From Lophium mytilinum (lineage: Eukaryota > Ascomycota > Dothideomycetes > Mytilinidiales > Mytilinidiaceae): 64,000 nt of DNA. The notes beneath the pieces were generated by a model, which had not been told where the DNA came from, made no database searches, and saw only the letters and a program-made list of their open reading frames with translations. This document shows positions 18,785-59,383 of the stretch, piece after piece (the stretch's first letter is position 1; each line of letters starts with the position of its first letter). Position numbers and translations under genes: made by a program. Where the stretch lies: NCBI GenBank assembly GCA_010093605.1, contig MU004201.1, positions 197,216 through 261,215 on the forward strand. Direction: 5' to 3'.

Positions 18785-19004
18785 TATTACAGTACAATAG
18801 CGGATTGTAAGAGAAGACCTAATATTAGTGTATATAGACAAAGTAGCAATAAGAAAGAAAGAAGGGCGCGGAGCGCTAGCCAAGAGGTAGGCGAGGCTAG
18901 CGCTAAGCCTGGTTATGTAATAGTAATCACGTGCTAGAGGGCACATAACGCTATTACATGTATTAGAAACGTATTACGATAGAGGGTGTGTTACAGCTAT
19001 AATA
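18785..19004 (-). repeat. 5' LTR of E2
   Basis: A 220-bp LTR matching the solo LTR at 13701-13920 and the E8 LTR at 62952-63171. On the plus strand it runs from TATTACAGTACAATAG to ACAGCTATAATA. The outer neighbour is ATGCC (19005-19009), which should be one copy of the target duplication; the other copy lies left of the window. It marks the insertion of E2 into H1. Confidence 0.87.
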
Positions 19005-19725
19005 ATGCCTAGAATTATATTATATTATCTAGTATTAGTAACATAGTAGGTAATAGTATTATAGTAGTTATCTATATAGAAGGTAACATCTACTATATAA
19101 TCTAGTGTAATTAAGGGCTTACTATTAGCAAGCTTAAGAATAACAGGCTATAAGAGGGGTCGGGTGGGTATTTTATAAAGACGCGCGGTCTTTAAATAAA
19201 GGAACTAAGAGCCTAATCCTATATTAGAAAGGATCTTACTAGTAAATAAATTAGAATTAAATTAGAGGATTCTACCTAAGAAGCTAAACTGTTCGCTATT
19301 AACCGGTTAGAGCGTAAGAGCAGATATATGCACAATAACTAGCTTAATTTCTTATTCTAAAATAGCAATTCTATCTATAACTGCTCTTAATTTTCCATTA
19401 TTAAAGGCCGTTGGGGGTTCTTAGTAGTAACTATTACTAAGGACTAAGTATTTCCCGTTATCTTATTATAGGTAGAGCTAGTATTTATAGCGCTAATATC
19501 TACGCCGGCAAGGTTAGTCTTATTAGCAAGACCGCTAACTTTATAGATAGGAACTAGTTATTAGCTAATATAGAGGGCGTTGCTGTTAGCTATATATCCG
19601 CGCTCTAGATAGTTCTAGCAGCGGCCTAGCTACTTAAGGCGCGCAATAGTGCAATAATCGCAACTAAAGAGGCCTAGAGAGTTTTTTACAGCGCTAGGAG
19701 TACTACAAGTAGCGTTGCCGGTATT
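19005..19725 (-). mobile_element. H1 (left part): older Gypsy-type element, protease to zinc-knuckle region
   Basis: Minus-strand fossil text that resumes at 27691 after E4. The right end (about 19600-19680) looks like a gag zinc-knuckle region when read on the minus strand, and the stretch to its left is in the position of protease. It is interrupted on the left by E2 and on the right by E4, so it is older than both. Identification as Ty3/Gypsy rests on order and context more than on clear motifs. Broken in many places. Confidence 0.55.
19721..19725. repeat. Left target-site duplication of E4 (GTATT)
   Basis: GTATT precedes the E4 5' LTR and recurs directly after the 3' LTR at 27691-27695. 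The exact match fixes the E4 borders. Confidence 0.9.
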
Positions 19726-19974
19726 TATAATAGATTACGCCCTGCCCTCTAGTTATATATTTACCTGTTACTGGCCACCGGCCTTCTACTTCTACATCTA
19801 TTACGTTACCTAGCGCCGCCTACGCGCTAGCCCGCCTAGCGCCTACGCGCCTCTCTCCTCTATATATATAGCTCCTTTCTAGAGGCCTCTCTTTCTACTT
19901 CTTATACAACCTCTTAAAATTAACCTATCTAGTTACCTTGTACTACTAAGCTTCTCTAAACCGTAACTATAATA
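19726..19974 (+). repeat. 5' LTR of E4
   Basis: A 249-bp LTR matching 27442-27690 end to end. It starts TATAATAGATTAC where the 3' copy reads TGTAATAGATTAC, a single RIP-type transition at the terminus. It contains the shared block CCTAGCGCCGCCTA followed by two GCGCTAGCC-type units. Confidence 0.92.
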
Positions 19975-21354
19975 TTAGGTACTAATTCTTTTTTACTATT
20001 ACTACTTTAACCCTTAAACATTAATTCTTATTTACTAAGCTATCTAATAGCTTAGTAAGCGTACCTATATAACTATATATATAATACTAAAGGGCATACA
20101 GCTATACTACCCTGCCTTACTAAGCGCTATTACTATATCTTTTGCAATAAGCGATCTACCGCCTCCACCAGGCGCTGGAATAGGACCTAGATGTTCTAGG
20201 CGCAGCGGCTTATAACTAGCCTCCTACTTTCTATAATCTTATCTATAGTCCCGCGCGCCCTCTAAGTCTCCTTATAAGACTCTAAAGAGCGCGCCCCTTT
20301 AAAAGCTAACTAAAGAAGATACTTAATAGTCTACCTAAATAATACGCGTAGATAACACTTAGCAGCCTACTTAAGAGAAAGAGAATTAGCTTACCTAGGA
20401 TAAAGACGCCACTAAAGATAATAACATCGATAATTCTATACGCACCCCGGACCTAATAATCTACAGCTCCATTATTAAGTACTATACTCCTAGCTGGGGC
20501 CGCAACCCGGGCACGTTTCTTAACACCCTTAATAACAGTACTAAATTCCTAGAGTATTTACTCCTTTCTAGTAATAAGTAGTTTAACGGCGTAATTAAGA
20601 TTACGGACTCTTAAGACTTCCTTACGCAAGTCTAAGCTAACTCTATCTACTTTTTCCGCATTCTTAGAAGCTATTAAGCTATAACTAAGATTCTCTAGTA
20701 AATACATAAGGATAACTAGAAAGCGCAGTACAACCTCTAAGATAAGATTAGAGTCCTTAAGGACGAATATAATAAAAGGACAATAATTTAGAAGCCGCGT
20801 ATAAGAAACTTAAACGCCTCCTTAATATTAAAACTAAACTAGAAGAGTGTAAAAATAAACTCCGTACCTATAAGGACACAATCGCTTCTCTTAACATAGA
20901 TATTAAAGCCTAGTAGAAGAACTATATTTAAGCTAATAAGTAATCTATAGAGCGAGGAAAGATTATTAAGCGCCTTATAGCTAACCTTACTTAAGTAGCC
21001 GAGGATAAATATAAATATAATACTTATCTTACTATATTAGAAAATAAAATTAAGACACTATAGACGCTCTAGTGTACTATTACACCCGCGCTAACTATAT
21101 AAGCCGCTCCTACAACACCTATAGTGCCCCGTCTAACCTATTCTATTACGCCTCTACTACCTATAGACCCTATTACTGCAGCGGCCGAAGATCTACTCGC
21201 CTCCCTTAACGGGGCAATTAAATTAGAAGAAGTATAAGCGGATAACAGCTCCTTAGCAGGCCGCAATACTAATAGCTATAATGCTAATTAATCTCGCCGC
21301 ACTATAGAATATATAACTAATAAAAATTAAGCTTACTGCACTATAGAGCACGTT

Positions 21355-21530: not shown

Positions 21531-24500
21531 TTACTATTACTAAGACCCCTATATTAAGACATCTAAAGATTATTAAAACCTTAGTATTGCTCTAAATAGA
21601 GTTCTTTATATAGAAGATAAGTTCTAGCCCTACCTAGATAAGTTTAGAGGTAATAAAGATAAGTACCCTAAGTTCTATTATAGATTCCTAAATAAAGTTA
21701 ATTACGGCAGCTATGCTATAAAATCTAGCGAACCCTTATATCTTATCTACCTTAGTAAGCAACTTACGGGCATACCCCTTAAAGGCTTCCGCGCTTAGTA
21801 AGATAGCTACTAACCCTTTCTTACCGTCTAGGAAGCTATTGCATTCTTAGACTCCTAATACTATAACCCTAATAAAATTAGTACTACTAAGGACAAGCTT
21901 TGCAAGCTTGTCTAGACGAGCAGCATAATACCTAACTGCATGTAGGAACTAATAAAATTATATATAATCTACCTCCTAGGCTATAAAGGCTATAGCAACG
22001 TCTATAACCTCAAGTAGAAACTCCGCCTAAATATTATTGCCGGCGCTATTTCAGGTAAAGGCTTTACTACTGGCCTATAGTATATTAGCGCTGCACGCAA
22101 ATAGCTCCGCGATAATAGTATTAATAAGAACGCGCAACCTACTAAATATAGCTTTAGTAACTTTAACCGCAACTAGCCCTAAGGCTTTAATTGCCGCAAC
22201 CGTAATTGCAACAACTATAATTGCAACCGTAACTATAACTATACTCCACGCCCTTTAACCGCAGCTGCCGTCTCTACAACTAAAGAGGATATTAAGATTA
22301 CCCCTTCTTCCAACTAGGTTCCTCCTAATAAACTCCGTAAAGGCGATAGAGAAGCGCTTATAAAAGAGGGTAAGTATTTCCGCTACTATCTTTCTAAGTA
22401 CTTTGCCTAAAACCTATACTGCCCTATAAATTAACTTAACAAACTAGGTTTTACTACTTATTAGATAGATTCATCCTTAGCACCCCGCCTTAACAATTGT
22501 GCCGCCCGCGTTGAAGAACTCTTAGATAATAACAACGACAGCTTTAATAACTACAAAACCCTTAATAATAAGCGAGGTTCTAGTTACTCTAAAGGTAAGG
22601 GTCTAAAGGGAAAAGTAAGGTTATAGACTATAGTCGCGGTCTATAATATAATAAGAACTTAGTTATAGAGAATCTTTAATACTAAAGGCTTATTATTTTA
22701 GTAGCCTCTCTTAGTAAAGCTTGACAGAAACTAATTTAAAATAAAGATAGAGGATTTAACGTTAAGCGGGTGAATAATATAGTCCTTTTAGTAATAGTAT
22801 AAACCTATAAGAAAGACTAACCTATAGGAATAATAAAAATTAATTCTTATCTTAATTATAGAGCCACTAATTTATTTACTAGTACTAAGCTCGCGTACCT
22901 AGCAAATCTACCTTGAAAACCCCTTAAGAAAGCCCGAGTTCTTAAACTAGCCAACGGGTTAGCCGTTGCCCAAAAAGTAATATATAAAGCCCTTCTTAGT
23001 ATAGATATAAACGGCTATTAGAGCCGTTATTAGGCCTACATTACTAACCTTAGAGACTACGCTATTGTTATAGGCCTTAACTAGCTTTAAGATTATAATC
23101 CAGCTATTAACTAGAAAGCAGGCCGCCTGGACTTTATTTGCTCTTGCTATAAACTATGCTAGAACTATGTATACCGTTTTAACCGCAACTTTATTACTAT
23201 CTAGGCAAACGGCATGCGTTCTTGCAATGTATCTAATTATTACTATAACCTTATAAATTAGAAACCTATTAGTGCAGAGGCCTGTATATAAATTGCCTCT
23301 ATTTCTAAGTGTAAAGAATAGAAACTTAAATAATTCCGCGCCACGTTGTGGAAACTTTAGAAAATAAGGACGAGGACTTTATTATTGCGTGTAACGGCTT
23401 GCAGGTTATTACCTTTTAGAGGGGCGATGACATCCCTTTTAAAGCACGTAAAATATTAGCTAAGGATATTAATAAGTTTATGCACACTAAGAAGCACCTC
23501 TTATAAGAAGAGATAGAATAATAACTTCTAAAGCGCCTACGCTGTTACGTCCATGTATTTAATTAAGTTAAGGCGAACATACTACCTCCGCACCGACCCG
23601 GAATTAATTACAAAATTAACCTTATTAAAGGAGCCAGTAAACTGCCTAAAGCCCGGCCATATAGTATATTAAAAGAGAAACTTAGAGTTATTAAGAAATA
23701 GATTAATAATAACCTTAATAAAGGATTTATCTATAAGTTATAATCCTCTACGTCCTCTTCTATAATTCTTATCCGCAAGCCTAGAGGGGGCGTTCGTTTC
23801 TATATTAACTATAGGGCTGTTAACGCTATAATAGTTAAAATAAGATACCCGCTGCCACTTATCTAAGAAACACTCTAAAAGCTTAGTAATGCTAAACAGT
23901 ATTCTAAACTAGATATTATTTCCGCGTTTAATTGAATTTAAATGCGGGAAGAATATATAGGTCTTACGGCCTTCTCTATATAATAGGGATAGTACGAATC
24001 TATTATTATCCTTTAGCGTCACGGAAGGCCCCGGACAATTCCAATCCTTTATTAACCGGATATTACACAATTACCTAGACAATTTCTATTTAGCCTATAT
24101 AGATAATGTTCTAGTCTATATAAATAGTACTAAAAAAGAATATAAAGAGCATGTTGTAAAAGTACTAGAAAGGCTTAATAAAGCTGGCCTTAATTGCAAC
24201 TTTACTAAATGCGAATTTAATAAAATAGAAATTAAGTACCTAGGTCTTATTATTACAACAGGAGGCGTCTAAATAGACTCTGAAAAAGTCGCCGCAGTTA
24301 TTAATTAGAAAACCCCTACCTGCCTATAGGATATATAAGCCTTCCCTAGGTTTACTAACTTCTACTAACGCTTTATACACGCGTTCTCCCGCATTATTAG
24401 CCTACTTATATTAATAATAAAAACTATAGACGGCAAGAAGACTAAGCTAAAAGCACAGTTTACCTAGAACAATAAATGCAACGCCGCTTTCTAAGCACTT

Positions 24501-25204
24501 AAGACGGTGTTTACTATAGTACCTATCCTTTACCACTTTTAATACAGCAAGAAGGTCTACATTAAAACTAATACTTTAAACTATGTCATCGCTAGCGTTA
24601 TATATAAGAAAGCGAAGACGGCCTACTCTATTCTATCGCCTTCTTCTCCTCTAGGATAACCCCCTAGGAATGTAATTATAAAATCTATAATAAGAAGTTA
24701 CTTACTATTATTAAAGCCTTTAAAGAATAGAGACCTAAATTAGCTAGCGCTAACCCGGACAATTCTACTAATATACTTATAGACTATTATAATCTGGAAT
24801 ACTTTATATCTATAAAACACCTTAATTGCCGGCAAGCCTACTAGGCCGGCTTTCTCGCTAGCTTTAACTTTAAAATTATCTATCGACTGGGCATATTAGG
24901 GGAAAAGCTAGATAGCCTTACTAGATAGTTATAAGACCTTTCTACGGATTTAAATAATCTACGCTATTAATTTTAACACTAAACAATCCTTAAATTATAT
25001 AACCTAGGCCTAGGCGTTGCACTAATATATTTACTAAATGTTAAATTAAGCTTACCTAACAACGGCCCAGGCTGCAAACTAAATCTAATTAGGCTAGTAC
25101 CTTACTATAAAGAGTTAGACCCGTTAATAACTATAGAGTTGCCACCGTTAAAGATATACTCTTAATTTCTTCTTGCACCTGTAACGCTGCGCAGTCACAC
25201 GCGC

Positions 25205-25252
25205 AACCCTAACCCTAACCCTAACCCTAACCCTAACCCTAACCCTAACCCT
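25205..25252 (+). repeat. Interstitial telomere-type repeat (AACCCT)8 in E4
   Basis: Eight perfect AACCCT units with no interruption, the plus-strand form of TTAGGG, the usual telomere repeat of filamentous ascomycetes. It lies in the linker between RNase H and integrase of E4. In the local reading direction the six-base period encodes alternating Asn-Pro. All units are perfect although the surrounding element is heavily altered. AACCCT on one strand contains no CpA, which may explain its survival. Confidence 0.95.
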
Positions 25253-27441
25253 ACTTCTCCTCTCGCGATTAAACTAACCCCCGCAAATAACAATAATCTC
25301 TACGCAGAGCCCAACCCCGTCTGTTAGTATATACTTACTGAGCTGTTTAATAAAGGCTATTACAGCCCGCTATAGAACTTACTAGAACCGCTATTTAATT
25401 CTATACTCTATAAACTTAATACTCTTATATAAGACGGCGAGCGCGCGCTCCCTTAATCTCTACGCGATATTGTTAGTAACCTAGCCATCTTAGAATTTAA
25501 AGTCCGCCGCAATTAACTATATTACTACGGCCGGTTGTATATACCCGCGTACAACAACTTATAACTTAAGCTCCTGCAGCTTACCTATAATACTACTATT
25601 AGCGGACACCCGGGAAAGCACAGTACATATAAACTTATCTAACGTTACTACTTTTAGCTAGGTATACGCGACTTAGTTAAAGACTATATAAGCGCCTACT
25701 ACGGCTGCAAATAATTAAAAGCCTTCCGCGATAAGAAATAAGGACTGCTACGTTTACTTAATATACTAGAATAGTAATAGACTAATATCGCTATAGACTT
25801 TATTATAGAGCTTCCTCCCTATAAGCGTAATAGTTAAATTTATACTAAAATTCTTATTATCATCTACTATGCTAGTAAGGAATATTACTATATTTCTATA
25901 AGTAGTACCTTTATCTATAATATTATTAATACTTTTCTCCGCAAAATCTATTATCTCTACGGCCTCCCCCGCGTTATTATTAGCGATCGCGATCTACGCT
26001 TTATCTTAGACGTTTAGAGACAAGTCTATAAGCATCTCGGCGTCTACTAGAATATTTCTATAGCCGCCTACCCTAAGACTAAGAGATAGATAGAAAACGC
26101 GAACGCTATTATAAAAGCCTACTTTAGGCAGTTTATTAATTACCGCTAGAATAACTAGGTTAATTACTTGCCTATTGGCGAGTTTTTAGTAAATAACTAA
26201 GTTAACACTTTAACTATAATAACGGCTTTCTTTATTAATAAGGGCTTTTACCCGCGTTCTAGCCTTAAGCCTCTACTAGGCGCAACAAATAACACCGCAC
26301 CCGATCCTCTGCCTACGCCCGTTCTCGACCCTCTGCCTACGCCCGCTCTTAGTACTAACGCTGCCATCCGTCGTCGTTAGCTTAAAGGTAATAAGCATGT
26401 TAACTAGATAAAGGAAATTCTAAATAAATATAAGGCTATAATAATATAGGCATAAACTAAATAAGTAGACTACACGAATTAGCACTATAATCCTCCGCTA
26501 AAGCTCTAAGTTAACGACTAGGTGTAGCTTAACGCCTATAACGTTAAGACTATCTAACTAAATAAGTTACTTAATTATAAGAACCTCGGCCCCTTCTATA
26601 TTACTAAGATTATTAATAAGAGTTACGCCTTCTAGCTTAACTTTATAAATATAAGCCTTAAAGGCTCTTAAACGCACTCTATCTTCTACCTATACCTTCT
26701 CTATATAGATAGGTTCTATCTACTACTAGGCTAATGCTAGCCACTACTACCTTCTATCTAGGTAATCGACCCCGTTACCTCTAAATCCGTCAAACAACAC
26801 CTAATTACGCGCATTATCGACAGCCGCTGGCGCGGCCGCGGACTAGAAGGACGCCGCTACCTTAAATATAAAGGACTTTATAAGGGTTATACTACACTAT
26901 AGAAATAGTAACCGTAGAAATACTTTATACCTAAAGCTGCGGATCTAATTAGTAAATTCTACAATCTTTACTCCGACGCCGACGGTCCTTATCTAGACTT
27001 CGAACTGAACAATAACTAGCGCGCGCGCCTTACTAATAATAATAACCTCTTTGCTAACTATCTATAATTACGATTACTCTATATAAGCTACGTCCTTATC
27101 TTATATAATTACCTCGCTATATCTTTATACCGCAATTAATAGCCTTATATAGTTTATTACAACTTTATATATAATAACTATAATAAGATCGGGATCCTTA
27201 GCTGCACGAAGTGGGCTAAGCCGTTATAACGGGAAAGCCCTTATAAGTAACGCCTTAAGCACGCTAGCTTCTTACATATTAGTATACAACTAATAATTAG
27301 TAAACTGCGCTATATAATTTACTGCACTAGATAACTGTTTACGCCCTTATATTTAAACCCGACAAGGCCCACAACACTATTTTCTTTTCCTTTCCCTTTT
27401 TCTTTTTATTTTTCTACCAGCGTTCCTAAACAGGGGGGTAG

Positions 27442-27690
27442 TGTAATAGATTACACTCTAGCCTCCAGTTATATATTTACCCGTTACTAGCTACCAGCCT
27501 CCTACTTCTATATCTATTACGTTACCTAGCGCCGCCTATGCGCTAGCCCGCCTAGCGCCTACGCGCCTCTCTCCTCTATGTATATAGCTCCTTCCTAAAG
27601 GCCTCTCTTTCTACTTCTTACACGACCTCTTAAAATTAACCTACCTAGTTACCTTATACTACTAAGCTCCTCTGCACTATAACTATAATA
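27442..27690 (+). repeat. 3' LTR of E4
   Basis: A 249-bp LTR that begins TGTAATAGATTAC right after a G-rich purine tract (CAGGGGGGTAG) and ends ...CTATAATA. It is followed by GTATT at 27691-27695. It pairs with 19726-19974. Confidence 0.93.
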
Positions 27691-30057
27691 GTATTATTCT
27701 TAGACATGCGCTCGGCGTTAGTAAGCGGGCAATAGGGCGCAGTGGAGGTTAAGCCGGTGCCTATAGCCTTACGCGTATTACGCATGGACTTAAAGGTTTT
27801 CTTATTCTTGCAGTTATTCTTATTTAGTTTAATAATATTAAGCTAAGACTCTAGGGTCTAGAGGAAGGTGATAAAGGTTATTATATTACTATATTATCTA
27901 TTAGCAGCCTTATATTTAAGGCTGTTGGTAAGATTACGCTATATATAGTAGATCTTCTTAGGGTCTTTAAAGTAGAGGGAGGCTACGCCGGTATTAAAGC
28001 GTTCTACGTAGGTTATAATGCGCTTGTCTTTTTTCTATATAAACTTACTATTATGTAGATTAGTATACGCGTTAGCTACTTTATTAAAAGGTCCGTAGAC
28101 CTTATTTAGATTATTAATTAGTTCTTCTATAGAGAGGTATAGCTTATTACTATTAGGTTTAGCGTAATAGAAGATTATGTTAAAGGCTTCTTTTTTAAGC
28201 CTATTGCGGACGTATACTTTATAATAGTGCGCGGTAGCGTATAGTAGTGCGTAGATATCTAGCTTACTAAGTACCTGCATGCGCTACTGCTAGTAGAATA
28301 GCTTATTCTTATTACTGCTACTAGACTTATCTAGATTAGGGTAGCGATATATTGCCGCGTACGCGCCGGGGTCTTAAATAGGCGTAAATAGAGTAGTGGA
28401 CTTACTCTTAATAGGTTTAAACTGTAGAGGCTAGCTAACAGGATAACACTAAAGTGGAACTGCAGGCGTAGGAGAATAAGTACTGTTATTATTATCTAAA
28501 TTACGGTTAGGGTCTAAGAGCTATAGGCGAGCCTATTAATAAAGCTATTATTTAAGCTTCTTGATATAAGTAGTAAGCTTCTTGCATATCTCTTTAAGAG
28601 TCTAGTACTCGCCACACTAGTAATTATAGCGTAGGCGCATCTAGTTAAGCTTAAAGTTAGCCTAATAACTACTTGCAACTTACTATAGCTACTTAGCGTA
28701 ATAGGCCTCCAGTTCTTATTCTACTATAGCCGTGTTATTAGTGGTGTTCTATTTATACTTTTAGTATTTATTCTAGAGTTTATTATAAAGCTTATCCTTA
28801 TTATTAGCTTCTTTAAAGCCTACTTTATACTCTATATAGAGCTTTTAGAAGGATTCCCACTATACTAGATTATTCTTAATTTACTATAGTAGTAAATTTA
28901 GTCTTATTAGTAACTATAGTGTTGACTATTATTATACCATCGCTATAATAGTTAAGGAGCTAGACCGGTAGCTATATATAGCGCTGTAGGTTAGTTTCTT
29001 ATAGTCCCTCTAGAATATCTATATACTTAGGTTTAGCGTCTAGAACCTATTTAGTCTTATAGCATGCAACTAAAATAGAGGCTTATTAATCTACTATAGA
29101 TACTTAGTAATAAGCGGCGCGCGGCTTACCGCTACTAGCTTAAGGGTTATGCATGTTGTCTTCTATAACGAATTAGACAGCGCGCTTACCTAGAATGTTT
29201 ACGCTAGGTGTAATAAAGCCGCCTTTATTATTAGAGTTACAGTCCGGGTTAAGTTTATTAGTAACGTTCTAGTTTAAGGTTCCGGCAGCGTTAACTTAAT
29301 TATCTGCTAAGCGTTTAGGGCGCTAGGTGTTAGCGCGCTAGGCGTCGGCGCGCTGGGTGTCGGCGCGCTAAGTATTATCTATAGTCTGTAAGAAGGCTTA
29401 GGTCTCTTCTTAGGTATTTAAAATTAGTCTTCTAGTTCTATACCGGAAGCTAGAAATAATAGCTAGAGTAGAAGAGCCTTTAGTTGCGCCTTAAAAGCGC
29501 GTAAGTTGCGCGGCGCGGTGTACTTTCTTATTACTGGCGGTTAATAGAGTTATAGGAGTATAGGTAATAGGTAGTCCTTCTAAAGTATTTAGGTTAGCGC
29601 TACTTATAGCGCCTAGAGTCTTTAGATCGCCTTAAAGCCTAGTTATAAAATTAACTAGCTTATTTAAAGGAGGTAGTGCTGGATTATAGTCCGCTAGGTT
29701 AGATTTAGGTGCCGCGCGTAGCTATATAGCTAGGCCGGCTAGTTTAATTAGTTTTAGTAAAAACGCCTAGATCTTGCGATAGAGTTCTACAAAAAATTAA
29801 TAAGATTCTAAGCGTGGAAAGGTAAGCTTAGATTATATAGGGGGCTGATATAATATAAGTAATAAGGTATATTAACTATTATAAAAATCTAAGCTAAGAA
29901 GGAAAGAGAGAGCTAGGAGCTCTTAAGAGGTTGTAGTTTAACGCCGGCGCACGGGCCGCAGCCTAGTGCCTCGGGCTAGTGTCTTGCTTAGGTCACGTGA
30001 GGGGCGGCATGTAACCTTAGCATGTAATTATTATAATCCTAGGTTTATACTGTAATA
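27691..30057 (-). mobile_element. H1 (right part): gag and 5' LTR of the older minus-strand element
   Basis: Continuation of H1 after E4. Minus-strand gag-like text spans about 29800 down to 27700; the clearest open fragment is 28035-28280. It is followed outward by a putative 5' LTR (29846-30057). A low-complexity run of GGCGCGCT-type units occurs at 29325-29375. It is heavily altered and broken. Family is inferred as Ty3/Gypsy from the LTR form and from continuity with 19005-19725. Confidence 0.55.
29846..30057 (-). repeat. Putative 5' LTR of H1
   Basis: On the minus strand this segment would start TATTACAGTATAAACC, which fits TGTTACAG with one transition, and end TATATCA just before gag leader text. 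The length of about 212 bp fits the other LTRs here. The partner LTR is not in the window, so borders are tentative. Confidence 0.5.
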
Positions 30058-51145: not shown

Positions 51146-51158
51146 GGGGGGGGGGGGG
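51146..51158. repeat. G13 tract at the E6 insertion site
   Basis: Thirteen G residues in a row directly before the E6 5' LTR. Seven G residues (59384-59390) follow the 3' LTR, then TGTTATAG. The target was therefore a poly-G tract, and five of the G residues should be the duplication; its exact position cannot be read. Confidence 0.9.
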
Positions 51159-51325
51159 TGTTACGGTTCTGTGGATGACAGGCTCTAGCGTATAGCACGT
51201 AATGGACGCTCACATGCACGCCCAGCCGGACGTCGGCGTCCTATACGCCGGCGTAGCCCTTAAGGCAACGCCTGCTAGCTAGCTAATAGGACACCTTTTA
51301 CCTCTACATCTTGCTTCTCGCAATA
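51159..51325 (+). repeat. 5' LTR of E6
   Basis: A 167-bp LTR, TGTTACGGTTC ... TCTCGCAATA, matching 59217-59383 with seven differences by eye, all transitions. The terminal CA reads TA here. The sequence AATGGTAGCTCAGTGC follows at once, and TGGTAGCTCAG (51328-51338) is the likely primer-binding site because it starts with the TGG that pairs with the tRNA CCA end. Confidence 0.95.
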
Positions 51326-51327
51326 AA

Positions 51328-51345
51328 TGGTAGCTCAGTGCTTTT
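51328..51345 (+). promoter_or_regulatory. Likely tRNA primer-binding site of E6
   Basis: TGGTAGCTCAGTGC lies two bases after the 5' LTR, the usual position for the site where a host tRNA primes minus-strand synthesis. TGG would pair with the terminal CCA. The rest of the sequence also resembles a tRNA D-arm (GGTAGCTCAG), so the primer tRNA cannot be named from here. Confidence 0.6.
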
Positions 51346-51655
51346 CCATTAGAATTCCTTCCTGAATTCACTAGCTTTACATATCGTAAGCACCAGATCA
51401 TACGCAGGCCTCCGGAAATCATCTTAGGAGCTCTCGGTCTCGATAGGATTATCTCAACGAGTTCCTGGCGTCCGAGACTATCGCCGGCTTCATCTCTACT
51501 AGCCTACGTCGCAACAGCTTATATAAGCTAGATGTACCATTAACTAGTCCTCTATAATCCGCGTTCACGGGTACCCACGTAAGACGTCGAGAACGTCGGC
51601 GTCCTTGAAGGCTTGAACGCTGCGAACCCGCCTTATAAGCTTTAATTAACAAACC

Positions 51656-51810
51656 GTTAACGACTTCCCGGAAAGCGTTGTCTTCTACGACTTCCTGGAA
51701 ACCGTCGTCTTCTACGACTTCCTGGAAACCGTCGTCTTCTACGACTTCCTGGAAACTGTCGTCTTCTATGACTTCCTGGAAACTGTCGTCTTTCACGACT
51801 CCTAGAAGCC
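51656..51810 (+). repeat. 27-bp minisatellite in the E6 leader
   Basis: Four full units of 27 bp (51677-51784; unit starts GTCGTCTTCTACGACTTCCT) plus degraded units on each side. Each unit contains the inverted pair GTCGT...ACGAC around TCTTCT. All frames stay open through it because the period is nine codons; this explains the apparent reading frames here, which I do not take for genes. Confidence 0.9.
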
Positions 51811-52166
51811 GCCATCTTCGACGGCTTCCTAGAGCTTACCGCATTGAGGAAGCAGTACCGTGGTTTAGAGGAAGCCACGTCATTAATAAACCCCATCTGC
51901 TTTCCTCTTAAGACTACTCTCTCTCCTTCATTAACATCTCCCTCATCAACGTCTCTTCTCTCTACGTCTGCCTCATCACGTACGCCGGCGACAGGCTTTT
52001 CGACGCCGCGTAAGAACAGGCTCTCGTTGGCGAGCCCCTTAAGCAAGCCGGCAGCCAGACGTCAGCGTCCTGCAGGCCGCTGTTAGTCTCTTGCGGCCGT
52101 CTTTAGCCTTTCACGGCCGTTATTAGCCTTCTACGGCCGCCATTAGTCTGACGCCCGTGTAACCTC

Positions 52167-53950
52167 ATGTCTGGTGGTGCCCAACGCCTAGACCTCCCGG
52201 ATTATATCGTCTCGCTTGGACGACAGCTTCACGCCTTCTTAATTGCCAACCGTTGAGCTATTAAGTCGATTGAGCTAAAGGCCATCTTACCTAGCTTCAT
52301 CGCGCACTTCCTAACCTAGCCAACCGTCTCTAGTACACAAGGACGGCGATTACAGTCTGTGGACCCCTTACCGTTTCCACTAGAGTGGAACATTACGACA
52401 GCCCGTGCTGATTACGCCGTCGACCGCTTTCTCGCCGCCGCCCGACTCGCCTATCCCGAGGAGATTGCGAATATCGGCCTTAGCGCCGGTACCGGAGCGC
52501 ACAACCGCGACACGTCGCGCTCCAACAACCTCTTCAACGACTCTGTGACGTCTGCGTCACCCAGGCTTACTCCTGACAGCCGCCGGCCATTGACAGCGTC
52601 CGCCCATTCAGGGTTCACGGAGCAGGTCACCCGCAACGAGAGCGTGAACCCGTTGCCGCTCGGCAACAATAATAACAATATGACGGCCTTCTCAGCTGAG
52701 CAGACCCAAGCCCTGCGTGACCTTATTCGCGCAGTTGTTACGGAAGTCCGTGACGAGAGAGCCCCGCCATAAGGACCACCTGGTCCTCCTGGGCCACCTG
52801 GACCCCCGGGCATTCCCGGAGACGCCGCGAACGGCGGAAACGGAGGCGCAGGTGGAGGCGGCTTCCGCGTCCAGGAGATTGGGTTCTATCAGCCCAACCT
52901 GGAACTCGACGTGTACGGACCCGGTGACGTTGTCTACGTTGGGCAGGACACGTACGTCCGTGACGTGTTTATCTTTGTTGACCGTATCCGAGACGCGGCT
53001 ACCCTCCGAGGAGATGACCTGATAAAGAGCAAGCTGCCCTAGTGTTTAAGAGGCAACGCTCTCGAGTGGTACACCTCTGGACTCTTAAATCTTGAGAAAC
53101 TCGGCTTGAGGCACGGTACTATCGACGACTGGTGTAACTCTCTCATTGCTTAGTTTAAGGAGCCCCTTAGCGACTCCTTGAATAAGCTGGCTAGCAGCAT
53201 CTACTCGCTTAGAGACGCCCGGAACCGGCGCGACGCAGCCAGCTACGTGTACTCGATGATCCGGCTAGCCAGGTTGTTTAACTTGGAACAGACTCTTAAC
53301 TAATTGACGTTCGCATGGAACGGTCTCGACACCCTCCTCCAACGCGATATTCCGGCGCCCTCCACCGTAACAACGGTGGAAACCTTCGTCAGGTCTATCC
53401 AGGATAAGCGCGAGCAGTGGTATTAGCTTGCAGGTATCTATTTGGGAGAAACACGGATGTCTAACGCTACGACTACGTTACCGTCTGCGACACGCCCTTT
53501 TAATGGTTAGTATTCTTAGAACCTCCCCCGACGGACTTTCCAGCCGTTAAACCGTGGCTCTTGGAACCAGGGCCTCCCGTACAGGCAGTACGGAGGGCCG
53601 TGGAACCGAGGTGGCGGTCCCGTTAACCCTTCACGCACTTACACCCCTTAGAAGCCTTAGTACGGCCAGTATAATCGCGAAAACGCTCAGCAGACGCCGC
53701 CGACCTTGCCGCCAGCTTTGCCAGCGCCTCGACAACCGCTGCAAATCACAAGCGGCAACGTTCCTGCCTCGCGCAACCAATAGCCCGCATCGCGAGGCGG
53801 CTTCTCAGGCAGCCGAAATCAGTTTGTTGGCAACAACTAGTCGAGGTATAAGACCTACGCCAATAACGCCGACCCCGACGTTAACGTTGAGGCCGACCCA
53901 GACGCCTATGCCCAGGACGAGCAGTACTGGAATGATGTCTAGGCAGGCGT
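52167..53950 (+). pseudogene. E6 gag region
   Basis: Fossil gag (capsid) text from ATG 52167. It has a proline/glycine tract with four GPP triplets and GIPGD (52773-52820), then a Gly-rich run, then a capsid-like domain (about 52870-53400) with the common gag motif GNALEWYTSGL near 53054. The later part (about 53500-53800) is rich in Arg, Pro, Gln and Asn. In the family the product forms the virus-like particle. Confidence 0.8.
52773..52850 (+). repeat. Collagen-like Gly-Pro-Pro codon repeat in E6 gag
   Basis: GGxCCxCC(T/A/C) codons repeated four times, giving GPPGPPGPPGPPGIPGD, followed by a Gly/Asn/Ala-rich stretch. It joins the N-terminal part of gag to the capsid-like domain and is probably a flexible or extended linker. 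Confidence 0.85.
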
Positions 53951-54108
53951 TAAAGAGACTATGGCTTATATGGGCTTTACGGAACCCCAAGAGCCTTTTG
54001 AAGAGCCCCAACCAGGAGAACTAGTCGCCGAGCAGGACTCTAACCTTGTCGACTGCGGATCTGTGGACGTCTTTAACGCCGCAACTTCGCCGGCGACCTT
54101 GCAGCCTA

Positions 54109-54170
54109 GACGTACGTGTCGTACGTGTTGCCTTACCTTCCCGTTGAACAACACCTTGTTTAAACATCTA
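54109..54170 (+). pseudogene. C2H2-like zinc motif between gag and protease of E6
   Basis: CRTCCLTFPLNNTLFKHLRT followed by DC: two Cys, a FPLNN core, His and a further Cys. This is the CxxC-FxSNNxLFxHLR form known in many fungal Gypsy polyproteins just ahead of the protease. Confidence 0.8.
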
Positions 54171-54249
54171 CGTACGGACTGCAGCCCTTTGACCTGTAAG
54201 CAGCACGCGGCCGTTGATTCTTAGCACGCTGAGACGGCCGCGAGCCCTC

Positions 54250-54880
54250 CGCAAGACGCCCCGATAATTACAAGCAAGCGCGTTATCACGTCGGCCACTA
54301 AGAACCCTAAGATTGGAACCGGGGTAGCGTTTTGAGGCTTCTACTATGTCACTATGAAGGCCTCTATAAGCAACTGTCCTCTAGATAATGTTACGCCTGA
54401 CTCTAGCAACACTATAACGCTGATAGGACGGAACTTCCTGTCTAAACATGGCAACCCGTTGAAGCTCTAGAAGATAAAGGAGCCCGTTATGGTCTAAGGC
54501 GTAGGCAATCGGCTCGTTCCCTCCGACGAATTCTGTGTTGTTGACCTATATATCCCAGGACTTCTACAAGGGACTTCTTGTACGGCCGCGATGCGTTTTG
54601 AGGCCCACGTTGTCGACAACCTGCGTGCGAACCTTCTGCTTGGCACTGACGTCCTGGACCCAGAAGACGCTGTCATCGACTTTAAGTCGCGACGCCTACG
54701 AATCGGAAGCTGTTAAGACTTCGAAGCTCCAATATTGTTGCGGGCGCGCGATGACCCAACCAAGATCCGGCGCATCGTGAAGGCCAAGATCTCCATAGTC
54801 GTGCCGGCTTACAGCGTGGGGCTCGTACCTATTAACGTACGAGGGCAGCTACCTGATCGCGACTTCAGCTTCACGCTAGA
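54250..54880 (+). pseudogene. E6 aspartic protease region
   Basis: Fossil text in protease position, between the zinc motif and reverse transcriptase. Recognisable parts include LIGRNFLSKHGNPL (near 54420-54460) and NLRANLLLGTDVLDPE (near 54620-54670), the latter typical of the C-terminal half of retropepsins. Confidence 0.7.
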
Positions 54881-55214
54881 GTTCCATAGTTAGAAGCTTG
54901 GCTATGAAGGAGGCGTCTATGCCCATATCCTGGACGCCTAGTTAATGCACGTCCAGGTGCACAACGCCTCTAACCTTAACTTTACCGTCCCTAGGAACGT
55001 TAAGCTCGGAGTTATTATAGACTGCTTCTATGAGGGAGCTTACTCCGTGGACGTTGACGAGCACTCCCTCGCCGTACAGAGAGCACCCCTCTGGCAGCCC
55101 CAGACGAGCAACGGCCCTAGCTTCCCGTTGCTTGGAGCCTACAATAGCGACACCTACAGGATTGAGCTCGCTGACGTGCAGACTCCGGACGCCCATAGCC
55201 CTGAGGCGTCCGTA

Positions 55215-55319
55215 GACGTTTACGCGCCTGTAAAAGACGTTTACGCGCCCGTAAAAGACGTTTACGCGCCCGTAAAAGATGTTTACGAGCCCGTGAAAGA
55301 CGTTTACGAGCCCCTTAAT
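55215..55319 (+). repeat. 21-bp minisatellite (DVYAPVK) ahead of E6 reverse transcriptase
   Basis: Five in-frame 21-bp units at 55215-55319 encode DVYAPVK three times, with DVYEPVK and DVYEPLN as the last two. The first three units are nearly identical in DNA, so the expansion is recent. It lies in the linker between protease and reverse transcriptase. Confidence 0.95.
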
Positions 55320-55589
55320 GACATAACGCCCGTGAATAGCAACGCGCCCACGGCTACCTTTTAGATTAATCCGAAGCTAGAAACTGAGTTCGACGGTCCG
55401 TTCGGAGTCACCATCTACGGCTCATCTGTCGCGAACGCTTCTTGGCTTAGCGACGTTGTGAACGACTTCGAAAGCTTGTTTACGGACGATGGTAAGCTGG
55501 CTAACGTCCCCGAGGACTAGTGGTTACAGGTTCCTCTAGTTAGCGACCTCGGCTCCGCGAGTGCGAAGCTGGCCCACCGCGTGTATCCA

Positions 55590-56900
55590 TTAGGCCCTTA
55601 AGAAAGAGCTCTCGTCGACGCCGAATTCGACAAGCTGCACGAATAAGGCCGGATGGAGTGGTCCACAAGCTCTACCCGCTTTGGGTTCCCGGTTTTTGTC
55701 GTCTGGCGAAATGTAACTATTAACGGAGCCCTCACACGCAAAGGACGTGTAGTCGTCGACATTAGAGGCCTTAATAAGGTCACCGTGAAAGACAGCTACC
55801 CCTTGCCGCGGCAAGAGGACCTAACAAGCGTGGTAGCTGACTGCCCGTTTATTTCCACTGTGGACGCCGCCTCATTCTTCTACTAGTGGCCTGTTAGCTA
55901 TAGCGACCGCGACAAGTTCACGGTTGTGTCGCACAGGGGCCAGGAACATTTTAACGTCGCCGTGATGGGCTTTTGTGGCTCCCCTCCTTACGTACAACGG
56001 TAAATCGACCGCCTGATACGGCGGTGCAATCTGAAGGCCTTCTGCCGGGCGTATATTGACGACATTGTTATCTTTTCACGGACCCTGGATGATCACGTCC
56101 GGCAGCTATATTAGGTTTTCACGGCTTTGCAAGACGCGTGCATCACGCTTAAGGGATAGAAGTTGTACATTGGGTACCCCTCCCTCACTCTTCTAGGACA
56201 GAAGGTCGACGCCCTAGGAATGACTACCGCCGCCGAGAAACTAGCGGCCATCCATAAGCTGTCCTTTCTAGCCACTCTTAAGGACTTAGAGCACTACCTG
56301 GGCCTTACTAGATGGCTCCGTCAGTACGTAGGCTACTATGCACAGCTCTTAGAGCCCCTCCAACATAAGAAGACGCGTCTGTTGAAGGCTGCCCCTGTCG
56401 CAGGCCATGCCAGGGTTCGCCATACGCAAATAACCCGGGTTTCCGAGGAAGAGGCCGTCTACAAGTCTTACAAGGCCCTGCAGGACGCGTTCTTCTAGGA
56501 AAGGATCCTTGTCCACTACAACCCCAAACGTCGCCTGTACATCGACGTCGACGCTTCCAAGGCCCGCGGCTTTGGCGTTATGGTCTACCACGTCAAGGGC
56601 GACCCGGATCAGCTTGAGGATATTAAGCGCGTAAAGATTGAGCCCATTATGTTCCTTAGCAAGCTTCTGTCCGCTGCCGAAAGGAACTATTGGCCCACCG
56701 AGTTAGAGGTCGCTTGCCTTGTCTGGGCGATCCGACGGGTTCACCATCTTGTGTCAGCATGTGAGCACCCCAAAGGCATAATAGTGGTGACCGACCATGC
56801 GGCAACGACGGGTATTGTGAAGGCTACGTCGCTTACAAGCTCTGCGGTCGATAAGCTTAATATGAGACTTATACGCGCATTGCAATATCTCTTATAGTTT
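55590..56900 (+). pseudogene. E6 reverse transcriptase and RNase H region
   Basis: Fossil pol text. Reverse transcriptase: RFGFPVFVVW, VVDIRGLNKVTVKDSYPLPR (near 55750-55810), and the YIDDIVIFS catalytic box at 56052. RNase H follows: RLYIDVDASKARGFGVM (near 56530-56580) and RNYWPTELEVACLVWAIRRV (near 56680-56740). The order and motifs are those of Ty3/Gypsy chromoviruses. Confidence 0.88.
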
Positions 56901-57252
56901 TAATTGGACGTCCGCTATAAGCCCGGACGGCAGCACGTCGTTCTAGACGCCCTATTACGTCTTCCATCCACCGCCGGCCCTATCGACCCTAATTTAGACA
57001 CACTTAAGGAGCTCTACACCTTTAACGTGTCGCTCGTGGAGCTCGCTGACGACTTCCGCGAGCAATTAACCCTGGCGTACGAAACCGACAAGCACTTCGC
57101 CGGAATCCGAGATCTTGTAGCCGGCGCCGCCGCCGCCTAAGACGCCGTTGTGGAGAAAGAACCTGCCATCAAGAACACCGCCGCCCAAGAACCTGCCGTC
57201 GTGGAGAAATTAGTTGTTACCTAAGAACCTGCCGTTAAGAACACCGTCGTAT

Positions 57253-57312
57253 AAGACGCCGCCGTTCAAGACGCCGCCGTCCAAGACGCCGCCGTCCAAG
57301 ACACCGTCGGCA
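57253..57312 (+). repeat. 15-bp minisatellite in the E6 linker before integrase
   Basis: Four 15-bp units (AAGACGCCGCCGTCC and close variants) at 57253-57312. Looser copies of the same AAGA(A/C)C(G/C)CCGTC theme extend left to about 57120. The period is five codons. Confidence 0.88.
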
Positions 57313-57404
57313 ACGTCGACTCCGAGGCCCGCGTTACGGTCGCAAGCCGCCACGCACCTCTCAGATCTGTATACGAGAACGAGCCCACGCCTGGCGTACT
57401 ATTT

Positions 57405-58140
57405 ATGGTGTATGAGGGCCTTCTTTACCACAAAGACGCTCTGGACGGGCACCTACGGCTGTGCATACCTAGGAGCCTAGAAGGAGACGTCTTTAGGGAA
57501 TGTCACGATAGACACTCACACGCCGGCTTCTACAGGACCTACGAGCGCGTTCGCGCCACCTACTACGTTAGGCACCTGGCTAGAAGGCTTAAACTCTACT
57601 TGCTCTACTGCCTAGCTTGCCGTGAGAATACTACAGGACGCCACCGCCCCTACGGAGTCCTTATTCCATTGCAGACACCTCTAATTCCTTTCTATACCGT
57701 GTCTATAGACTTTATTGTTGGTCTGCTAGAATTTAACAGCTATAACGCTATAGTTACTGTCACCGACAAGTTCTCCAAACGCGCCACAATGGGCCCTGGC
57801 AAGGACACGTACGACGCAAAGGACTGGGCCCGCGTTGTCTTAGACCTCTTGGCTAACTGGGGCGTCCCGGCCGCTACCATTATGGACAGAGATTGAAAGT
57901 TTATGTCGGCGTTCTGGAAGGCCTTGTTCCAGCGCCTTGGGACTAAGATATTGATGTCGACGGCCTATTACCCACGAACAGATGGACAGTTAGAACGGAC
58001 TAACTAGACGGTCGAGATAGCCCTCTATTATTACCTCTCGCAGCCCGGAAATCTAGACTGGCCTGCCTTTCTGCCTACGCTCTATAGGAGCCTTAACAAC
58101 TCCATTAATGTATCTACAGGCTTGTCGCCGAACCAGGTTA
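57405..58140 (+). pseudogene. E6 integrase region
   Basis: Fossil integrase with the HHCC zinc-binding part (HDRHSHAGFYRTYERVR near 57500, then CLACRENTTGRH near 57610) and the catalytic core (FYTVSIDFIVGLLEF near 57690, [16 protein letters not shown] near 57955-58005). It would insert the cDNA and, with the chromodomain, target chromatin. Confidence 0.88.
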
Positions 58141-58199
58141 TCTACGGTTTCCAGCTTAATGAGGGCCTGCCGGCCCTCCCTGTTGGCAACGTCACAGAC

Positions 58200-58337
58200 G
58201 TCGACGACGCCTCGCTTAAGGCGCAGCCCCCCACAAGCGTCCAAGACGCCCGCGTCCAAGACGCCTACGTCGACGACGCCTCGCTTAAGGCGCAGCCCCC
58301 CACAAGCGTTCAAGACGCCCGCGTCCAAGACGCCCAC
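58200..58337 (+). repeat. 69-bp direct duplication in E6 after the integrase core
   Basis: Two nearly identical 69-bp units (58200-58268 and 58269-58337), each 23 codons, beginning GTCGACGACGCCTCGCTTAA and containing CAAGACGCC triplets like those at 57253-57312. The few differences point to a recent duplication. Confidence 0.92.
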
Positions 58338-58724
58338 GTCGACTTCCTGGACACCCGCAATAGGTTGCGGCAAGAAGCTGCAGACTCTATCGCCTTCGCC
58401 GCCGCCAGAATGAAGCTTCGCTTTGACAAGATAAGGGCGCCCCTGCAACTATAAGCCGGCGACCTTATCTATATACGGCTGCATAAAGGCTTCCGAGTAC
58501 CGGGAGTCCATTACAAGTTCGGCGCACAACGTGTTGGGCCTCGGGTCGTTAAGCGCAAGGTCGGCGAAAACGCCTACGAGGTCGACCTGCCGCTTAGCTG
58601 GAAAATCCACCCTGTGATATCTGTGGAGCAGCTTAAACCTGCCCCTGCGACTAAGGACCCGTACGGACGCATCCAAGAGGAACCCCCAGCCGTGGAAGAT
58701 AAACGCAACGATGAGATAAGCGCC

Positions 58725-58895
58725 TTCTACGAGGTACAAAGGCTGGTTAATTGACGGGCTCGTTGAATTGGACGCTCTAAGAAGCTCTTCACGGAGTACC
58801 TGGTGCAATGGAAAGGCTACGGACCCGAGGAAAATCAGTGGGTTCGACGCGAAGACGTCGATGAAGATCTGGCAAACGCCTACGACGCCGCCCAT
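58725..58895 (+). pseudogene. E6 chromodomain
   Basis: Text near the end of pol with LFTEYLVQWKGYGPEENQWV followed by RREDVDEDLANAY. The WKGY...W pattern and its position after integrase are those of chromovirus chromodomains, which bind modified histone tails. Confidence 0.88.
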
Positions 58896-59216
58896 CCGTG
58901 AACGGGCTTGATCGCCACAAGTTGATCGCTTCGGCTTGATCACTACGGCTTGATCGCCTGTTATTAAATCTTCTTACGAGCCTGTTATCGTTTACATCCT
59001 TTACAGCCTCACCGAGTTCCAAGAACCTGCCGTAACCTATTGTCTTCGCCGAGACCTGCAAACCTATTGTTCTTGCCCTCCATTGCTTACAGGCCCATTC
59101 TTACTACGACCTCAACACCTTGGTAAGTAGGATATGTCTTGGGAGGAGGATCTTGCATGTACTAGCGTTCTGTCACGGTCGTCGAGGACGACGACGTCTC
59201 TTTGTTTGGGGGCAGT

Positions 59217-59383
59217 TGTTACGGTTCTATGGATGACAGGCTCTGGCGTACAGCACGTGATGGACGCTTACGTGCACGCCCAGCCGGACGTCGGCGTCCT
59301 ATACGCCGGCGTAGCCCTTAAGGCAACGCCTGCTAGCTAGCTAATAGGACACCTTTTACCTCTACATCTTGCTTCTCGCAACA
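59217..59383 (+). repeat. 3' LTR of E6
   Basis: A 167-bp LTR, TGTTACGGTTC ... TCTCGCAACA, preceded by TTTGGGGGCAGT. It keeps the ancestral CA end and pairs with 51159-51325. Confidence 0.95.

Follow-up and report, generated by a model that had tools for sequence, protein, structure and literature searches.

Copies of two Ty3/gypsy-type retrotransposon families in Lophium mytilinum carry a predicted Asn-Pro linker written in the host telomere hexamer

Two Ty3/gypsy-type retrotransposon families of Lophium mytilinum, here called E4 and F2, appear from their sequences each to have a family-wide, protein-coding Asn-Pro linker that is spelled as the telomere unit of the host. A perfect array of eight units lies in an E4 copy within the window, the 64,000-nucleotide stretch of contig MU004201.1 that was analysed. 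The features of this copy are as follows.

19726..19977, + strand: E4 5' LTR (direct repeat, 90% over 250 nt, edges extended two bases from the alignment)
23961..24269, + strand: open piece of the E4 reverse transcriptase (PF00078, E 1.5e-13)
about 24611..24865, + strand: E4 RNase H domain (PF17917, E 7.3e-9, with X at stops)
25205..25252, + strand: (AACCCT)8 array between RNase H and integrase, reading (Asn-Pro)8 in frame with pol
about 25556..25714, + strand: E4 integrase zinc-binding domain, H2C2 (PF17921, E 3.1e-7, with X at stops)
27442..27693, + strand: E4 3' LTR (direct repeat, 90% over 250 nt, edges extended two bases from the alignment)

E4 has the paired direct LTRs and the order of reverse transcriptase, RNase H and integrase that are common to Ty3/gypsy LTR retrotransposons, and differs from them in an RNase H-integrase linker composed of the host telomere hexamer. 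The 5-mers flanking its LTRs, where a target-site duplication would lie, are GTATT and TTATT. Numerous stop codons interrupt the element and it is depleted of CA and TG, which is the pattern that repeat-induced C-to-T mutation (RIP) leaves. No Pfam match was obtained for two gag-side pieces, and a viral-contig search with the reverse transcriptase piece returned no relative. PHROGs and PDB were queried with an integrase piece of 25 residues, with no meaningful match. Downstream of the integrase zinc domain, at 26295-26349, lies a 24-base repeat that reads DPLPTP in the pol frame.

The array consists of eight perfect AACCCT units; Tandem Repeats Finder called it at 25205-25253 with 100% matches. 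Although the single hexamer was not clearly enriched in the window (48 occurrences, eight of them in the array, against 38.7 expected), seven overlapping AACCCT 12-mers were present against 0.01 expected in shuffled sequence, and the array is therefore not attributable to chance. The Asn-Pro reading, the RNase H domain and the integrase zinc-binding domain fall in one shared frame when stops are read as X, which bears out the preliminary description of a perfect Asn-Pro array in the coding direction between RNase H and integrase.

The assembly that contains the window comprises 43.18 Mb in 24 contigs and represents one strain, within which all comparisons of element copies were made. AACCCT telomeres occur at 12 of its contig ends, so that the proposed link between the array and the telomere unit is real at the sequence level. 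Matches to (AACCCT)3 numbered 175 in the assembly, of which 162 were at those 12 ends; the other 13 came from five loci in the interior of contigs, each with at least three perfect units. Two of the five are E4 copies, two are F2 copies, and one is at C3:155764. This last locus (L061, G000:C3:155764-155793) has five TTAGGG units in DNA without a RIP signature, and is the only such internal locus outside the two families. Variant units were seen in two telomeres: AACTCT among AACCCT at the end of C8 (L092), and units lengthened here and there by one A at the end of C3 (L004). The window array, at C21:222420, is an interstitial telomeric sequence in that eight host telomere units lie away from a chromosome end. 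Short interstitial telomeric sequences are described as a few telomere units off chromosome ends, the most studied human ones having 2-25 copies (PMC6410037); the E4 arrays differ from these in being spread by a transposon family, at one set place in the coding region and with the reading frame kept.

Inspection of the same linker in other E4 copies, which the preliminary description had proposed, was carried out by a DNA search of the assembly with window positions 24600-26100, which gave at least 48 matching stretches (40 of 90 candidates were scored). Among the matches listed, all 17 loci that cover the linker, the window copy included, carry an array at the same place, ranging from four to nine units per copy and totalling 48 AACCCT, 60 AACTCT and seven other units. 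Thirteen weaker relatives (L048-L060) had no such array; their linkers differ, and many are rich in Asn. Presence in every linker-covering locus found supports the family-wide linker among the readings first offered, and indicates that insertions of the family brought telomere-type DNA with them, as had been suggested for the spread of the element. It also rules out a private microsatellite at the window locus, and leaves capture at one locus an unneeded and ill-fitting account.

A second family was recovered by searching the assembly for arrays with AACTCT units, which produced 79 matches. By position these represent one telomere, 15 loci of E4 and 14 loci outside it. The latter 14 and a fifteenth constitute F2 (L110-L124); all 15 align with one another at 79-94% identity, and none gave a blastn match to the E4 flanks at E 1e-5. 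The F2 array, of three to 14 units, occupies one fixed place upstream of the reverse transcriptase in 15 of 15 loci. In one copy (L124), the piece downstream of the array matches the structure of the Ty3 reverse transcriptase (PDB 4ol8, E 6e-7), which marks the F2 enzyme as Ty3-like, and the Asn-Pro reading is in frame with this piece. The F2 pieces had no Pfam match; a motif in F2 is presumably that of its protease. A further F2 fragment lies beside the E4 copy in the window:

18990..19566, - strand: F2 fragment that stops short of the F2 array (82.6-89.6% in matches of L110-L124)

When Asn-Pro arrays in other codons were sought across the assembly, three short loci of the AAYCCC type were found (G000:C3:293230, C9:235355 and C11:1404174).

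Since the units are six bases long, their number cannot test whether the frame is kept, and linker length minus the array was used instead. This length was 2 modulo 3 in 16 of 16 E4 copies (134-170 bases; L047, whose match ends early, was excluded) and in all 14 measured F2 copies (71-89 bases; the fifteenth was without an anchor).

A third LTR element in the window, G3 (51150-59381), has LTR-like repeats at 51150-51323 and 59208-59381 that are 95% identical over 174 nt. It is much less affected by RIP, with CA at 0.74 of expectation, and stands as a GC-richer island within RIPed DNA. Two of its in-frame repeats are the following:

55214..55313, + strand: 21-base in-frame tandem repeat (DVYAPVK), upstream of a reverse transcriptase-like piece
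57231..57309, + strand: DAAVQ repeat of 15 bases, in frame, in the linker between RNase H (PF17917, upstream) and integrase (PF17921, downstream)

A 69-base in-frame repeat is also present downstream of the G3 integrase piece. The reverse transcriptase-like piece had no Pfam match but matched the F2 reverse transcriptase piece by BLASTP (E 1e-5); G3 protein pieces found nothing in E4 or F2 by tblastn at E 1e-3. The G3 polyprotein thus resembles that of E4 in having a tandem peptide repeat in the same linker, although its 15-base unit is unrelated to the telomere unit. The elements here are thus given to stretches between domains that have grown by repetition, the E4 linker being one with a hexamer unit.

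The main targets of RIP are CpA, TpG and CpG. AACCCT contains none of these dinucleotides, and among the eight hexamers that can encode Asn-Pro only AATCCT shares this property. The E4 element in the window is heavily RIPed, with CA at 0.35 of expectation as compared to 1.09 in the ordinary stretch around L061, and across the 17 E4 loci the ratio ranges from 0.05 to 0.39; only one other copy of the 17 is as little RIPed as that in the window or less. Of the scorable CA/TG sites no more than 150 bases from the array, the window copy kept 20 of 25 and the next best of 16 aligned copies 11 of 27, figures that are biased upward since scorable sites were picked for varying among copies. The preliminary description had contrasted an unmutated array with heavily altered surroundings. 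The alteration holds for the element at large, but near the array none of the 16 aligned copies is better preserved than this one. The lack of a main RIP target in the hexamer, and the place of the window copy among the two least RIPed, account for the untouched look of the array, and the argument built on it is weak.

Across the 17 E4 loci the share of AACCCT units falls as RIP rises (rho 0.88; 0.86 without the window copy), in a comparison that controls only partly for relatedness among copies. The trend persisted within four E4 subtypes (0 of 20000 permutations), the subtypes being drawn by eye from indels and the counts omitting the first units of long arrays; one three-copy subtype was out of order. 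Because of this trend, AACTCT units are probably decayed AACCCT, and the E4 ancestor probably had a purer telomere-type array. In F2 the corresponding correlation was not significant (rho 0.30, p 0.28, n = 15). The decay also departs from that of the surroundings, which counts against a simple RIP story: in E4 the middle C is T in 60 of 108 AACYCT units, as against 104 of 369 comparisons in which CCC elsewhere had changed, and the first C has changed in one of 115 units, as against 67 of 312 for ACC elsewhere.

We consider it probable that the array is an Asn-Pro linker of a Ty3/gypsy-type Pol polyprotein that grew by slippage, and that it matches the telomere unit mostly by accident. In the family ancestor, a brief run of Asn-Pro codons in the RNase H-integrase linker would have slipped during replication or during reverse transcription and so expanded to an (Asn-Pro)n spacer, which the copies would have inherited; AACCCT would match the host telomere hexamer largely by coincidence, and that spelling probably lasts because it is one of the two free of CpA, TpG and CpG. 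The shared place in all 17 loci, the single frame, the lengths of 2 modulo 3, the in-frame repeats of G3 and the Asn-rich linkers of the weaker relatives all argue for this reading, and from them we infer the slippage mechanism, the role as a peptide spacer and the absence of a role at the DNA level. Against it stand the unusual decay of the array, the F2 correlation that fell short of significance, and the failure to see an intact E4 or F2 copy among the loci found, which leaves a translated linker a prediction. Moreover, because E4 and F2 share the telomere hexamer without blastn similarity in their flanks at E 1e-5, the coincidence must act twice.

An ancestral element may instead have captured telomeric DNA, through a template switch or break repair, that by chance was open in the Asn-Pro frame and then spread. 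Capture would account for the exact identity of the array unit with the host unit, for the purest arrays being in the least RIPed copies and for the recurrence of the unit in F2, but no capture junction was found in any copy or relative, the arrays of E4 and of F2 alike run in the coding direction and in frame as Asn-Pro, and the G3 linker has its repeat without the telomere unit. It is mainly the habitual presence of repeats between domains, in G3 and in the 24-base repeat of E4, that leads us to prefer slippage of a protein linker, and we regard capture as unlikely.

The telomere repeat could also have been retained for a reason at the DNA level, such as binding of a telomere-repeat protein, recruitment of the element's RNA or cDNA, or service as a telomere seed. 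Its occurrence in two families, and the fact that four of the five internal loci with at least three perfect units belong to E4 or F2, would fit such a role, as would the six of 32 E4 and F2 loci found no farther than 50 kb from a contig end, an excess over random placement (binomial p 0.008). However, other gypsy copies, the weaker matches taken as controls, were not significantly different (2 of 20, Fisher p 0.46), so that subtelomeric targeting was rejected; 14 of 17 E4 loci and 12 of 15 F2 loci are more than 50 kb from a contig end. Healing of telomeres at the array was likewise rejected: of 48 contig ends, 16 contig starts are N, and when the other 32 (500-1700 bases each) were compared with the two flanks of E4, the only flanks so compared, none of the 12 telomere-bearing ends matched. 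A lone weak match (75 bases, 73%, E 9e-5) was at an end of C9 without a telomere array. The linker lengths, in keeping the frame, also speak against a DNA-level reason, which we hold to be improbable. We are similarly doubtful of a broader proposal, in which two Ty3/gypsy families independently acquired and kept a telomere repeat in pol, their insertions planting interstitial telomere seeds and their RNA resembling a telomerase template in its run of AACCCU; most seeds would later be disarmed by RIP (AACCCT to AACTCT), and live copies would have been dispersed fragile or telomere-protein-binding sites.

That RIP made the spelling, by converting an ancestral (AACCCC)n to (AACCCT)n, is disfavoured and very improbable: AACCCC arrays do have a CpA at each junction, and CA depletion is severe throughout the 17 E4 loci, but the 231 junctions between units in the two families were all free of CpA, and the window copy lacks CpA in its array while keeping most scorable sites nearby, even if the choice of sites inflates that retention.

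Among fungal retroelements, MoTeR of Magnaporthe and FoTeR of Fusarium are described as telomere-associated, their ends or junctions bearing telomere repeats, and FoTeRs as non-LTR elements (PMC7367193, PMC12857005). E4 and F2 resemble them in carrying TTAGGG/TAACCC repeats but differ in having these inside the coding region and in that most of their loci are far from contig ends. E4 and F2 do not share the habit of inserting into or beside terminal telomere repeats, with 26 of 32 loci more than 50 kb from contig ends and no E4 flank at the 12 telomeres; nor do terminal telomere repeats without LTRs describe E4, which has LTRs and an internal array. In the literature searched, mostly outside subscription journals, no title or opening of an abstract concerned telomere arrays inside the pol of an LTR element.

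The E4 case illustrates that a coding microsatellite can mimic captured telomere DNA. Work on Magnaporthe oryzae concluded that breakage is promoted by tracts of at least three TTAGGG units (PMC7367193), and it is possible that the array acts as a telomere seed or fragile site in its host. Whatever selected the unit, a mobile family with the telomere unit of its host inside it spreads interstitial telomeric tracts through the genome, and erosion of the motif by RIP could defuse such sites.
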